Below are positions 3,409 through 9,748 of a stretch of 21,181 nt of DNA, piece after piece. A program made the translations under genes and the position numbers. Source of the DNA: a bacterium (GTDB taxonomy: Bacteria; SM23-81; DAOVCL01); NCBI GenBank assembly GCA_029932675.1, contig JAOZPP010000058.1, positions 1-21,181 on the forward strand. The letters run 5' to 3'. Positions within the stretch are counted from its first letter, which is position 1; each line of letters begins with the position of its first letter. The notes beneath the pieces were generated by a model. That model did no database searches. It was not told the DNA's origin and was given only the letters and a program-made list of their open reading frames with translations.

Positions 3409-3912
3409 TTAGAATTTCACCAACTTCTCTCCCGGGAGGTTACACACTGGACATCTCTCCGGTGGCTTGCCCATATGGGTGTATCCACAAACAGGGCATA
3501 TATATATCTCCTGGCCTCCAATGTCCTCACCCCTCTCCACCTGGTCTTTGGCCAACTCATATAGTCCCCGGTGGATCTTCTCTGCCTCCAGGGCATAATG
3601 GATCGCCCTCTCCGCCCCCTTTTCGCCCTGAAGCTTGGCCACGGCATCATAGGCTGGGTACATCTCCTCTATCTCAAATGCTTCCCCTTCCAGGCCAGCT
3701 TGCAGGTTTTCCCCAGTCCCCTTTATTATACCTAAGTTGCGGGCGTGATTTGTGGCATGAACCTGCTCCGCATAGGCGATGGCCCTGAACAGCCTGGCCA
3801 CATTGGGAAACCCCTCCTTTTCCGCTATCTCGCTGAAGGCGAGGTACTTCATATGGGCCATAGACTCCCCGGCGAAGGCCTCTTGGAGGGCCTTTTCGGT
3901 CATCTTCTTCAT
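3409..3912 (-). CDS. rbr: Rubrerythrin (diiron domain plus rubredoxin-like domain)
   Basis: This NAD(P)H-peroxidase component reduces hydrogen peroxide at a diiron site using electrons passed through its own FeS4 centre. With the start at 3912 it has 167 aa. The four-helix domain has E16, E49-x-x-H52 and E111-x-x-H114. The C-terminal domain has C139-x2-C142 and C154-x2-C157. Three in-frame ATGs lie close together (3921, 3912, 3903). The one at 3921 touches the AAGGAGG, so 3912 (MKKMTEKAL) has the best spacing and the usual family N-terminus. The 180-residue version from 3951 would overlap the peroxiredoxin and is unlikely. It sits between prx6 and hcp. Confidence 0.96.
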   Translation of the reverse strand: MKKMTEKALQEAFAGESMAHMKYLAFSEIAEKEGFPNVARLFRAIAYAEQVHATNHARNLGIIKGTGENLQAGLEGEAFEIEEMYPAYDAVAKLQGEKGAERAIHYALEAEKIHRGLYELAKDQVERGEDIGGQEIYICPVCGYTHMGKPPERCPVCNLPGEKLVKF

Positions 3913-3926
3913 CTTTTTCATCCTCC

Positions 3927-4568
3927 TTAAAGCTTGCGGTGGCAGAACCACCAGTCAAAGCACTTATACTCCTCACCCCGGCGTCTGGCTGTCTCCTCAT
4001 CCATAGCCGGGGGGATGATTACCTCATCATTGATCAACTCATTGTCTGGCCAGTTGGCCGGGATGGCCACCCTCTCCCTATCCGATATCTGCAGCCCCTT
4101 GATCATCCTTACTATCTCGTCCATATTCCTCCCCAGTTCCTGGGGATAGTAGAGGATAGCCCTAATTACCCCTTGGGGGTCAACTATAAAGACTGCCCTC
4201 ACCGTATTCGTCCCCTTGCCCGGATGGATGAGACCAAGTAGGCCGGCAACCCTCCCAGTGTCATCGGCGATCACGGGAAACTGGATCTCTGTCTTCAGGT
4301 TGTCCCTAATCCACTCCACCCATTTGATGTGCGAAAAGACCTGGTCGATGCTCAACCCGATGAGCTCACACCCCAGCCCCTTTAGCTCCTCATACCGCCT
4401 CTGAAAGCCGACGAATTCGGTGGTGCATACAGGCGTAAAGTCAGCCGGATGGCTGAAGAGGATGAACCACTTTCCTGCATAGTGGCCAGGCAGCTTGAGT
4501 CTGCCTTGGGTCGTCTGCACCTCGATCTCCGGAAAATCCTCTCCAATTAGAGGTATCCTCACTTCCAT
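3927..4568 (-). CDS. Peroxiredoxin, Prx6 / archaeal type
   Basis: A thioredoxin-fold peroxidase of 213 aa. The peroxidatic cysteine is C48 in PVCTTE, with T45 and R124 completing the active-site triad. The long C-terminal domain ends with C203 and C209 ([13 protein letters not shown]), the arrangement seen in Aeropyrum and related Prx6-subfamily enzymes, where one of these cysteines resolves the oxidised C48. It should reduce hydrogen peroxide and organic peroxides in the cytosol using thiol donors; the protein disulfide oxidoreductase at 7361-8008 is a plausible reductase (inference). The start at 4568 follows AAGGAGGAG. The neighbouring rubrerythrin starts 14 bases after its stop. Confidence 0.94.
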
Positions 4569-4589: not shown

Positions 4590-5093
4590 TCAATAAATTG
4601 GCCAGAACTTGTTATCATACCAGATGCTCTCCCTGAGCTCCTCGTCCAGCTCAGAGAGGAAGACCAAGTGGCTCTTCTCCCAGTCAGCCAGCCAGCGGTA
4701 GAGCCTCTTAGCCACTGGGTCATCTGTGGAAGCAGCGCTTTCCGCGTAGAACTTTACCGCCTTCTCCTCCATAGCCATCGCCGCGGATATGGCTGCTGCC
4801 TCATATCCCGCTGCGGAGATCTCCTTACGGACTTCTTTTGTAAGCACTGCTTTGGTTACAACAGAGGATCCTTTATCCATCTTCGGGGGGGTGAACTTGC
4901 CCTCCCGCTGGAGGTTACTATACTCCTTCTCCAAGATGGCGATGTGGCTCTCCTCCTCTATGGCAAGGGTGCGGAATATCTCCCCCACTACCTTGCTCTC
5001 CGTATGGTGAGAGGCAAATTCATAAAAGGATTTCCCCTGGCGCTCCAGGAGGATAGCCCCTTTGAGTATCCCCAAGGGTTCCACTTGCAGCAT
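4590..5093 (-). CDS. Ferritin-like diiron protein, 167 aa, aromatic C-terminus
   Basis: A rubrerythrin-type four-helix protein without a rubredoxin domain. The half-sites are E17 with E47-x-x-H50 (IEEESHIAIL) and E109/E110 with E139-x-x-H142 (DWEKSHLVFL). An insert of about 40 residues joins the helix pairs. The C-terminus, ending IWYDNKFWPIY, is rich in aromatic residues. The ATG at 5093 has GGAGGGAG in front and follows the rubredoxin stop by 12 bases, which suggests that rubredoxin supplies electrons to it. It is distinct in length and linker from the other ferritin-like proteins here, so it is not a recent duplicate. Function is likely peroxide or oxygen reduction. Confidence 0.87.
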   Translation of the reverse strand: MLQVEPLGILKGAILLERQGKSFYEFASHHTESKVVGEIFRTLAIEEESHIAILEKEYSNLQREGKFTPPKMDKGSSVVTKAVLTKEVRKEISAAGYEAAAISAAMAMEEKAVKFYAESAASTDDPVAKRLYRWLADWEKSHLVFLSELDEELRESIWYDNKFWPIY

Positions 5094-6359: not shown

Positions 6360-7364
6360 CTACTCCTTATTCCCCAAGGGGGCCTTAACCTTCCGGCGGG
6401 TAAGCCTAATCGCCGCTAAGGTGAGCTCGTCGCTTAACGGCCGCCCGCCCAAAAACTCGCCTAAGGAATCGATCACCTTTTCAATGAGGGCATCAGGGCG
6501 TAGCCTCTTACATCTTTGTAGGATTTTCCCTAACCTTTCCCGTCCATAGGCTTGACCTTTCCCGTCCTCTGCCTCGATCAGCCCATCGGAGAAGAGGAGA
6601 AGGGTCTCCCCTGGATGGAGCTTGATATTCCTCTCCCTATAAGTAGTCGCCCCCTCTATGCCTAAAGGAAACTGGGTCTCAGTGAGGGAACGCACTTCCC
6701 CTCTGGGGGTGAGGAGGAAGGGAGGCTCATGGCCTGCCGATCCATACCAGAGGATATCCCGGTGCAAAAGCCCAGCGAAGAGGGTAACAAAGGTGAGCTC
6801 TTCTTTGCCCTGCTCGCTGAGCACCTTGTTCAGCCTACCCAAGAGGTTAGCCGGAGAGAAGTTTTCCACCCAGTCCTCTGGCGTGGAATCTTCCAATAAA
6901 CCACCAATCTCTTCCGTGAGGATAGCCTTGAGTTTAGTGGCCTTCAACCCATGGCCCATAACATCAAAGAGCATAATCAACAAGGCGCTATCCCCCTCTT
7001 TCCCCCTCCAAGGGAAGCTATGGAAGTAATCACCGCCCATAAATACCCCAGGGAGGGAAAGGGAGACCACCTCTACTTGGGGGTAGTGGAACCGTTGAAT
7101 AGGTAAAACTTTGGGCAGGGGATAAATTACTTCTGTACTCCCGAAAAGCTCTTTTCCCTCAGACTGAGCAAACCTATGTAAAGTGGTGATCTCCTGAAGG
7201 AGCGCCAACCTGTGCTTTCTCTCCTCCTCAGCGAGCTGGATAAGCAATGCCTTTGTTTCCTCAAAAGGGGAGGATCTGCTTGCCGTTCGATAGTAATTGA
7301 AGGCCTCCACCTCCTTCTTTACCGCGCCACGGAGGATATTCACCAAGGGGAGGAGGCCCTTCAT
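6360..7364 (-). CDS. Ferritin-like helical segment fused to SpoIIE/RsbU-type PP2C phosphatase
   Basis: 334 aa. Residues 1-64 align by eye with the first half of the rubrerythrin-like neighbours: AVKKEVEAFNYYRTAS carries E18, and LAEEERKHRLAL carries E48-x-x-H51. Only one helix pair is present, so a diiron site would need a dimer. Residues about 95-320 are a SpoIIE-type serine/threonine phosphatase: GGDYF (D112), FDVMGHG (D134), GSAGHEPP (about 208-215), LFSDGLIEA (D260) and SDELTL (D312, where DD is usual in the family). It should dephosphorylate a protein, classically a STAS anti-sigma antagonist, under control of the N-domain. No anti-sigma or STAS gene is in the window. It overlaps the upstream gene as ATGA. 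Confidence 0.9.
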   Translation of the reverse strand: MKGLLPLVNILRGAVKKEVEAFNYYRTASRSSPFEETKALLIQLAEEERKHRLALLQEITTLHRFAQSEGKELFGSTEVIYPLPKVLPIQRFHYPQVEVVSLSLPGVFMGGDYFHSFPWRGKEGDSALLIMLFDVMGHGLKATKLKAILTEEIGGLLEDSTPEDWVENFSPANLLGRLNKVLSEQGKEELTFVTLFAGLLHRDILWYGSAGHEPPFLLTPRGEVRSLTETQFPLGIEGATTYRERNIKLHPGETLLLFSDGLIEAEDGKGQAYGRERLGKILQRCKRLRPDALIEKVIDSLGEFLGGRPLSDELTLAAIRLTRRKVKAPLGNKE

Positions 7365-8008
7365 TCGACCTCCGCAGCGGCTAAGACCTGATCTACAAAG
7401 GCTGGCTCCGGCAGAGCCCCCTCAAACTGCACCCTATCATTTATGTCGACCTTGGGGACAGCCTGCACCTGATAGCGGTTGGAGAGGTAAGGGAACTCGA
7501 TGGCCTCAACCATATCGGCGACGATGTAGTCATTCTCCATGGCCAATCGATGGGCAAGCTGCACTGCCCGTGGGCAGTAGGGACAGGTGGGAGTAATAAA
7601 CACCTGGATATGCACGGGTTTATTCACTGTTCTTATCCTCTTCCGGCTATCAGCGGAGAGCCCAGAATCTCGGGCTGAAACCATAGAAATGGCCTCTAAC
7701 AGGGAGGTAAACTCATAACCAGAAGGTATTCCATAGAACCTGATCCCGTAGTCCTTAGGTCCTTCGATGATAGTGGCAGGGATCTTGTCCACCCCATATG
7801 CTTGGGCCTTCTCCTTATCCGTGGTGAAATTGAAGACCTGGAGGCTCAATTTGTCGGAAAGGTTGGTCAATTCCTCTAAGAGTTTGTGGGTTTGATCACA
7901 ATACTGACACTCTAACTTTTGGGTGAAGAGGGTAATCTTCACCTCCTCCTGCAGTTTCTTAAATTCATCGCTGATGAACTTCTTGTCCTCATCCTTAAGC
8001 AGGTTCAT
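7361..8008 (-). CDS. Protein disulfide oxidoreductase (two thioredoxin folds, glutaredoxin-like)
   Basis: 215 aa with two tandem thioredoxin folds, each with an active CxxC: C34-QY-C37 in the N-unit and C142-PY-C145 in the C-unit, with cis-prolines near P77 (KIPAT) and P185 (AVPKV). This is the architecture of the protein disulfide oxidoreductases known from Pyrococcus and other thermophiles and found in many anaerobes. It can reduce or form disulfides in the cytosol and, with a thioredoxin reductase, can recycle peroxiredoxins. The start at 8008 has AAAGGAGG and lies inside the end of the rseC-like gene (14-base overlap); the stop overlaps the phosphatase start. This is tight coupling with both neighbours. 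Confidence 0.94.
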   Translation of the reverse strand: MNLLKDEDKKFISDEFKKLQEEVKITLFTQKLECQYCDQTHKLLEELTNLSDKLSLQVFNFTTDKEKAQAYGVDKIPATIIEGPKDYGIRFYGIPSGYEFTSLLEAISMVSARDSGLSADSRKRIRTVNKPVHIQVFITPTCPYCPRAVQLAHRLAMENDYIVADMVEAIEFPYLSNRYQVQAVPKVDINDRVQFEGALPEPAFVDQVLAAAEVE

Positions 8009-8520: not shown

Positions 8521-9339
8521 CTAAGAAAGAACACTGAGGTCAATTTCCGATGCCTGCTGACAATGGGGACAGAAGTAGGTGCTCCGACCGGACTGCCTGA
8601 CCTTCTCTATGGGATGACCGCAATTGGGGCAAGGCTCCCCCGCCTTTCCATATACCAGCAGAAGCTCTTGATAACCTCCTCTGTCCCCCTTGGTATCAAG
8701 GTAGTTGTCTACCGTGGTCCCCTTCTCCTGAACAGCCTTGCTTAAGATGGACTTTGTCCTGGCCACCAGGATGGCGATTTCCCCTCGGCTCAAGGTATTT
8801 GCTCTCCTCTGGGGATGAATGCCTGCGGAGAAGAGGATTTCTGCAGCATATATGTTTCCTATCCCCGCAATCCTTCGTTGATCCATTAGAAATTCCTTTA
8901 TCCTCCGCAAGCTCCCCTTGGTAATCTGATAGAGATAACCTTCGCTGAATTCAGGGCTTAAGGGCTCAACCCCCAAACTGGAGAGCAGATGGAGATCCTC
9001 ACTCACCATCAAGGTGCCAAACCTACGTTGGTCTATCCAGTAAAGATCCCCTCCGCTCAACTGGAGGATGGCCCGGAGGTGTTGAAGAGGGTAGTGATCC
9101 GGATGCCAGAGGAACCTCCCGGTCATTCGGGGATGGGCTATCAGGTAAAGGTCCTCCCTAAAGCCAAAGATAATGTTCTTCCCGCGCCGCTGGAGGGAGG
9201 AGATCACTTCCCCTCTTATCCTCCTTATTCCTTTACCCTGCAGCTTGGGGTCTAAGACCTCCACCCCCTTCACCCTCTGGCCTAAAACCTTCCCCCGCAA
9301 TTGGCGGGTAATCGTCTCCACCTCAGGCAGTTCAGGCAT
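8521..9339 (-). CDS. mutM: Formamidopyrimidine-DNA glycosylase (Fpg/MutM)
   Basis: A bifunctional glycosylase/AP lyase that removes 8-oxoguanine and ring-opened purines. The N-terminus MPELPEVETI gives the catalytic Pro2 and Glu3, and the catalytic lysine of the RRGKNIIF strand is K54. The helix-two-turn-helix is in the GIGNIYAAEILF region, and the C-terminal zinc finger has C237-x2-C240 and C257-x2-C260. At 272 aa it is full length. The ATG at 9339 was chosen over 9372 because it opens with the invariant family N-terminus and follows GGAGGAAGGGG. It overlaps the perR stop by 8 bases, so oxidative DNA repair is probably made with the peroxide regulator. Confidence 0.97.
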   Translation of the reverse strand: MPELPEVETITRQLRGKVLGQRVKGVEVLDPKLQGKGIRRIRGEVISSLQRRGKNIIFGFREDLYLIAHPRMTGRFLWHPDHYPLQHLRAILQLSGGDLYWIDQRRFGTLMVSEDLHLLSSLGVEPLSPEFSEGYLYQITKGSLRRIKEFLMDQRRIAGIGNIYAAEILFSAGIHPQRRANTLSRGEIAILVARTKSILSKAVQEKGTTVDNYLDTKGDRGGYQELLLVYGKAGEPCPNCGHPIEKVRQSGRSTYFCPHCQQASEIDLSVLS

Positions 9340-9748
9340 CCCCTTCCTCCCGACATCTGGCACAAAGACCATAGAAATAGGCCTGCACCATCTCTATTTT
9401 ATGCCCCTCTACCATCCCCCTCTTCACCACGGAGCAGTCTATCTCCACATCATATATACGATGACACCGGCGACAGAAAAAATGGTGGTGAATATCAGGC
9501 CGAGGGTCGTAGTGAGCCTTCTCCTTTTCTATGGTTAGCTCCTGGATCAGCCCTGCCTGGGTAAGCACTTGGAGCGTATTATAGACCGTGGCCTTAGAGA
9601 AAGTGGGATATTGACCCTTGAGGGCCTCATAGATTTCTTCTACAGTGGGATGGGTAGTGCTCTCCTCCAGGTATTGCAGGACCACCAACCTCTGGATAGT
9701 GGGGGCTATCCCCTTTTCCCTTAATTTTTCTATCCTCTCTTCATCCAC
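9332..9748 (-). CDS. perR: PerR-type peroxide-sensing Fur-family repressor
   Basis: 138 aa with an N-terminal winged helix (TPTIQR... FSKATVYNTLQVL) and a C-terminal metal domain. All five regulatory ligands of Bacillus PerR have counterparts: H33, D81, H87, H89 and D100. D100 matters, because PerR needs Asp there to be peroxide-sensitive whereas Fur-like sensors often carry Glu. The structural zinc site is C92-x2-C95 and C129-x2-C132. Metal-catalysed oxidation of the His ligands releases DNA in known PerR (established for the family). The start is a GTG at 9748 with only a weak GGAA upstream. It is first in the oxidative-stress cluster, with a matching operator in its own promoter. Confidence 0.92.
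   Translation of the reverse strand: MDEERIEKLREKGIAPTIQRLVVLQYLEESTTHPTVEEIYEALKGQYPTFSKATVYNTLQVLTQAGLIQELTIEKEKAHYDPRPDIHHHFFCRRCHRIYDVEIDCSVVKRGMVEGHKIEMVQAYFYGLCARCREEGDA

Follow-up and report, generated by a model that had tools for sequence, protein, structure and literature searches.

We identified in the window (the whole stretch of 21,181 nucleotides that was analysed) a gene for a 334-residue protein that joins an N-terminal half-ferritin hairpin to a SpoIIE/RsbU-type PPM phosphatase (Table 1). Conservation among relatives confirmed that the fusion, the half-site and the metal ligands of the phosphatase are real. Our analysis favors, with a probability of roughly 0.5, a function for the hairpin as a half-ferritin sensor whose metal-dependent pairing would gate the phosphatase, with a STAS protein as the likely substrate. 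A sequence-only reading of the same DNA had given the exact coordinates of the gene without stating that it lies on the minus strand, and had described the product as a ferritin-like helix pair fused to a complete SpoIIE-type phosphatase. Both Pfam domains are indeed present and above the curated cut-offs. The Rubrerythrin profile matched residues 9-60 (E 3e-5) with its first half only (positions 1-54 of 137), and the nearly full SpoIIE profile (PF07228, positions 2-191 of 192) matched residues 125-321 (E 8.7e-39, 133.9 bits). The SpoIIE match above cut-off and the conserved metal aspartates, all four of which are invariant in 12 of 12 family members, identify the second domain as a SpoIIE/RsbU-type PPM phosphatase. 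Its fold matched the RsbU domain of Rv1364c, SpoIIE, RssB and SiaA, phosphatases with which the fusion shares both the fold and the metal aspartates.

Table 1. Coordinates in the window of the fusion gene, its domains and ligand codons, and selected neighboring genes.
Feature	Position	Strand	Basis
Fusion gene, half-ferritin hairpin + SpoIIE/PPM phosphatase, 334 aa	6360..7364	-	ORF and Pfam; common to 12 full-length family members
N-terminal helical hairpin, residues 5-69 (helices 5-31 and 35-69)	7158..7352	-	AlphaFold, invariant ligands, PDB profile matches, Foldseek
Hairpin ligand codons	E18 7311-7313; Y25 7290-7292; E48 7221-7223; H51 7212-7214	-	
Variable linker, residues 70-89, confidence low in part	7098..7157	-	Length varies among relatives; identity ~36%; pLDDT <50 at residues 69-77
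SpoIIE/RsbU-type PPM phosphatase domain, residues 90-321; metal aspartates D112, D134, D260, D312	6402..7097	-	Pfam, invariant Asp, fold matches
Thioredoxin/glutaredoxin-domain gene upstream of fusion	7361..8008	-	Pfam; 4-base overlap with fusion start
Fur-family regulator	9332..9748	-	Pfam FUR, 4.5e-25
Full-length rubrerythrin-like protein, first half aligns with fusion hairpin	4590..5093	-	Pfam; ungapped alignment
Peroxiredoxin-like gene	3927..4568	-	Named from sequence; clusters with peroxiredoxin-like genes of L048 and L052
Rubrerythrin with C-terminal rubredoxin-like domain	3409..3951	-	Pfam

The hairpin is the most conserved part of the protein: mean pairwise identity is 61% over residues 9-61 but falls to 44% in the phosphatase and 36% in the stretch that follows the hairpin. 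All 13 N-termini share six of its residues (E18, Y25, E47, E48, H51 and E58), and on each helix the invariant positions group along a single face. The sequence-only reading had made its case depend on the conservation of E18, E48 and H51 among homologs; these residues sit where it had placed them, and no N-terminus departs from the three. Y25 is present as well. Searches of the PDB with a profile of the hairpin retrieved a ferritin-like protein of P. furiosus (2fzf, 3e-9), the encapsulated-ferritin domain of the same organism (9e-6 and 7e-5), a designed diiron bundle (5e-4) and EncB (0.004). The encapsulated ferritin (EncFtn) of R. rubrum scored an E of only 0.67, yet it aligned in register (positions 14-54 of the hairpin against 28-68), and a constant offset of +14 carries E18, Y25, E48 and H51 onto the EncFtn diiron ligands E32, Y39, E62 and H65. 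The same E/Y/E/H register on a two-helix hairpin relates the fusion to R. rubrum EncFtn (5da5) and P. furiosus PFC_05175 (5n5e, 2e0z), and in 2e0z the hairpin likewise is not free-standing but belongs to a larger chain of 345 residues. The two-helix hairpin of the fusion, with Glu, Glu-x-x-His and Tyr in diiron register, has the half-site of the EncFtn class. In contrast to EncFtn, which is a decameric ferroxidase cargo of encapsulins, the fusion carries its hairpin on a phosphatase, and the acids of the EncFtn entry site (E31 and E34) are not conserved in the fusion family, where K/R17 and E/D/S20 are the equivalents. None of the genes named around the fusion, in the stretches read, was an encapsulin.

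Rubrerythrin and COG1633 ferritin-like proteins, represented by 2fzf, provide the best sequence match of the hairpin profile and have relatives encoded next door, but each of their four-helix chains holds both half-sites, whereas the fusion has a single hairpin followed by the phosphatase. The half-site is best restated as encapsulated-ferritin-like rather than rubrerythrin; structurally it comes closest to the encapsulated-ferritin class, with its two-helix subunits and a diiron site across the dimer. The position-by-position match that had been claimed between the hairpin and its rubrerythrin-like neighbors stands for the protein encoded at 4590-5093, with 17 identities in 57 ungapped residues and a score of 63 (shuffle mean, 27) that none of 500 shuffles reached. 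For the remaining ferritin-like neighbors (590-1093, 3409-3951, 1096-1632 and 2-400), pairwise comparison gives little or no match: they score 22-37, and between 8 and 448 of the 500 shuffles did as well or better. Chance similarity between coiled coils was also considered as a source of the hairpin match and was ruled out because the hairpins of fused genes scored 112-130 bits and every other listed match about 52 or less, a gap that is biased toward the fused genes by a profile built from the fused set.

Structure prediction with AlphaFold gave for the hairpin alone two helices (residues 5-31 and 35-69) with a pLDDT of 92.5 and, for the full-length protein, the same hairpin at lower confidence followed by a linker of partly low confidence and the PPM domain. 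The two-helix hairpin agrees with the sequence-only reading, which had hinged on the N-terminal helices pairing in a ferritin-like manner. Encapsulated ferritins and related half-ferritins ranked first in a Foldseek search with the hairpin (73 residues), though with modest E-values (0.013 and up), and many unrelated helical hairpins appeared among the top rows of VIA-align. Because unrelated hairpins were also returned, the fold alone was not counted as proof and the case was built on the sequence and the ligands.

Each chain carries one half-site; completing a diiron site therefore takes a second chain or a partner. The assembly of EncFtn is metal-dependent and takes place at the dimer interface (PMC5012862), and RsbU becomes active once a coiled coil formed by its linkers brings the phosphatase domains together as a dimer (PMC12143880). 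Given one half-site per chain and control of RsbU by dimerization, we propose that metal-dependent pairing of the hairpins controls pairing of the phosphatases. Two hairpins would pair as in encapsulated ferritin, and the interface would bind two metal ions through E18, Y25, E48 and H51 of both chains. The dimer would then form, come apart or change shape according to whether the metal is bound and whether it has reacted with peroxide or oxygen, and its state would in turn determine how the two tethered phosphatase domains pair and how active they are. The signal may be iron, peroxide, oxygen or NO, among which the sequence does not discriminate. The variability and low confidence of the linker leave no rigid coiled coil in evidence, and its variable nature argues for tethering rather than for a rigid rod. 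The invariant E18, Y25, E48 and H51 in EncFtn register, the half-ferritins at the head of the Foldseek ranking, the match to only half of the Rubrerythrin profile, the higher conservation of the hairpin over the phosphatase, the invariant PPM aspartates, the single clade of fused phosphatases and the Fur-family, peroxiredoxin and rubrerythrin neighbors in two phyla favor the sensor model, and the genome does encode STAS and HATPase_c_2 proteins. Against it weigh the variable linker, three loci with no peroxide or ferritin-like neighbor, the lack of a target gene linked to the fusion, and hairpin Foldseek E-values that are modest in a fold to which other helical hairpins align too.

A TrmO-type gene lies downstream of the fusion, one base apart, and the genes on the same strand of the window include a Fur-family regulator, a thioredoxin-like protein, a flavin reductase, rubrerythrins and a ferritin, as well as a peroxiredoxin, a desulfoferrodoxin and a hybrid-cluster protein named from sequence. 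The operon runs on to the contig edge (2-400 and 590-1994) with a ferritin, a desulfoferrodoxin-like gene and two further ferritin-like genes, the last of which is cut by the edge. The peroxide-defense context proposed from the window extends to the relatives, as Fur-family, peroxiredoxin and rubrerythrin neighbors occur in both phyla; names in the relatives' loci come mostly from clustering and sequence, with a sample assigned by Pfam. In two loci (L048 and L052) a Fur-family gene is directly upstream of the fusion, and rubredoxin-type, rubrerythrin-like and peroxiredoxin-like genes come after it. The Fur proteins of the window and of these two loci have an aspartate pattern that may be PerR-like. 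Placement immediately behind a Fur-family gene would also suit a hairpin that serves as a constitutive dimerization or structural module, perhaps with a metal for stability but without sensing, in a protein controlled by its expression in a Fur-family regulon. The invariant stripes on both helices are what a packing interface would look like; packing alone, however, needs no invariant buried Glu and His in exact diiron register, and we regard such a module as unlikely.

Rubrerythrin-like genes flank the fusion in five further loci (L032, L033, L049, L050 and L053) and one adjoins it in L051. This recurrence raises the alternative that the hairpin is one half of a mixed four-helix bundle whose other half comes from a neighboring ferritin-like protein, in which case the signal would be carried by that partner instead of by another phosphatase chain. 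A second half-ferritin gene near the fusion in the SM23_81 genome would fit such a partnership, but most of the rubrerythrin-like neighbors match both halves of the profile and should fold alone, and three loci (L031, L034 and L035) have no peroxide or ferritin-like neighbor in the stretch read, all of which makes a mixed bundle improbable. The SM23_81 gene (L024:1745-2260, minus strand), one gene past the HD-domain gene that comes after the fusion, encodes a 171-residue protein with a Rubrerythrin half-profile (residues 10-75) and a weak DUF4177 match below cut-off, and is possibly a second half-ferritin fusion.

The fusion is carried by a small group of uncultured bacteria, and each of the 12 full-length family members that were scanned matched both Pfam families. 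The same fusion was found in candidate division Zixibacteria SM23_81, which belongs to the same small phylum as the window, and in other Zixibacteria; the phylum of the window is sampled by four genomes, one of which the SM23_81 contig matches. A profile search of 132 Zixibacteriota genomes retrieved the fusion in 11, ten with both domains readable and the eleventh interrupted by masked bases. In a tree with 26 unfused SpoIIE domains, the fused phosphatase domains formed one clade (support 99/100), within which long branches make the branching order unsure; this topology is consistent with a single origin of the fusion. Two genomes of the same genus and phylum (G001 and G002) gave no match to the hairpin profile at E 0.01 and, because both drafts are about 90% complete, loss and incompleteness are inseparable. 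No match at E 1e-40 covered the hairpin in 395 genomes of the phylum of G009. Relatives were absent from a first scan of genome contigs and from a scan of viral contigs, and a second genome-contig scan ran narrow patterns that may have missed fusions in further phyla. A tblastn search of plasmids with the full protein retrieved 46 records in which at least 80% of the query was aligned, whereas the first 119 residues alone had no match in plasmids; the two records inspected had no sign of a fusion, one (Rhizobium Pop5) being a much longer SpoIIE protein and the other unannotated.

The sensors named for the PPM family (PMC12143880) are PAS, response receiver, GAF and HAMP domains, none of them ferritin-like, in contrast to the fusion. 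Hemerythrin-domain sensors such as DcrH use a diiron helical domain as an oxygen or redox sensor for a signaling output (PMC9388753) but differ from the fusion in fold and ligand set, and such a phosphatase is unmentioned in that source. Literature searches found no paper that pairs a ferritin-like domain with SpoIIE and nothing relevant on rubrerythrins fused to PP2C or acting as sensors. We tentatively suggest a new signaling input, one in which a half-ferritin, through its inter-chain metal site, places phosphatase dimerization under the control of iron and of iron oxidation by peroxide or oxygen, tying iron and redox state directly to Ser/Thr dephosphorylation. If true, partner-switch phosphatases would gain a metal-based sensor with a fold not described for them in the literature examined, and a storage and peroxidase fold would turn out to have been adapted into a switch that functions solely in dimeric form, in agreement with the current model in which phosphatase dimerization is the controlling step.

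The most likely substrate of the phosphatase is a STAS anti-anti-sigma protein whose gene lies elsewhere in the genome; its dephosphorylation would link iron or redox state to a stress regulon. As the sequence-only reading had noted, the target is absent from the window, where no STAS or anti-sigma partner gene was seen beside the fusion, nor was one seen, by eye and by clustering, in the other neighborhoods read. Such neighborhoods would suit a sensor of the proposed kind with an output other than partner switching, acting on a different phosphoprotein such as one from the stress operon. We consider this output rather unlikely, as studied bacterial relatives of the phosphatase act on STAS proteins (PMC11418112), and the genome encodes several STAS candidates. 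It contains six SpoIIE genes, six STAS proteins and two HATPase_c_2 proteins. The STAS proteins on contigs C4 and C111, where no SpoIIE gene was found, keep the Ser/Thr pair at the usual loop and are candidate targets of the phosphatase. On another contig of the same genome (C77; L027:6304-9081, minus strand), a 925-residue protein carries a HATPase_c_2 domain at its N-terminus and, on the same chain, a SpoIIE phosphatase, and a STAS protein is encoded two genes away.
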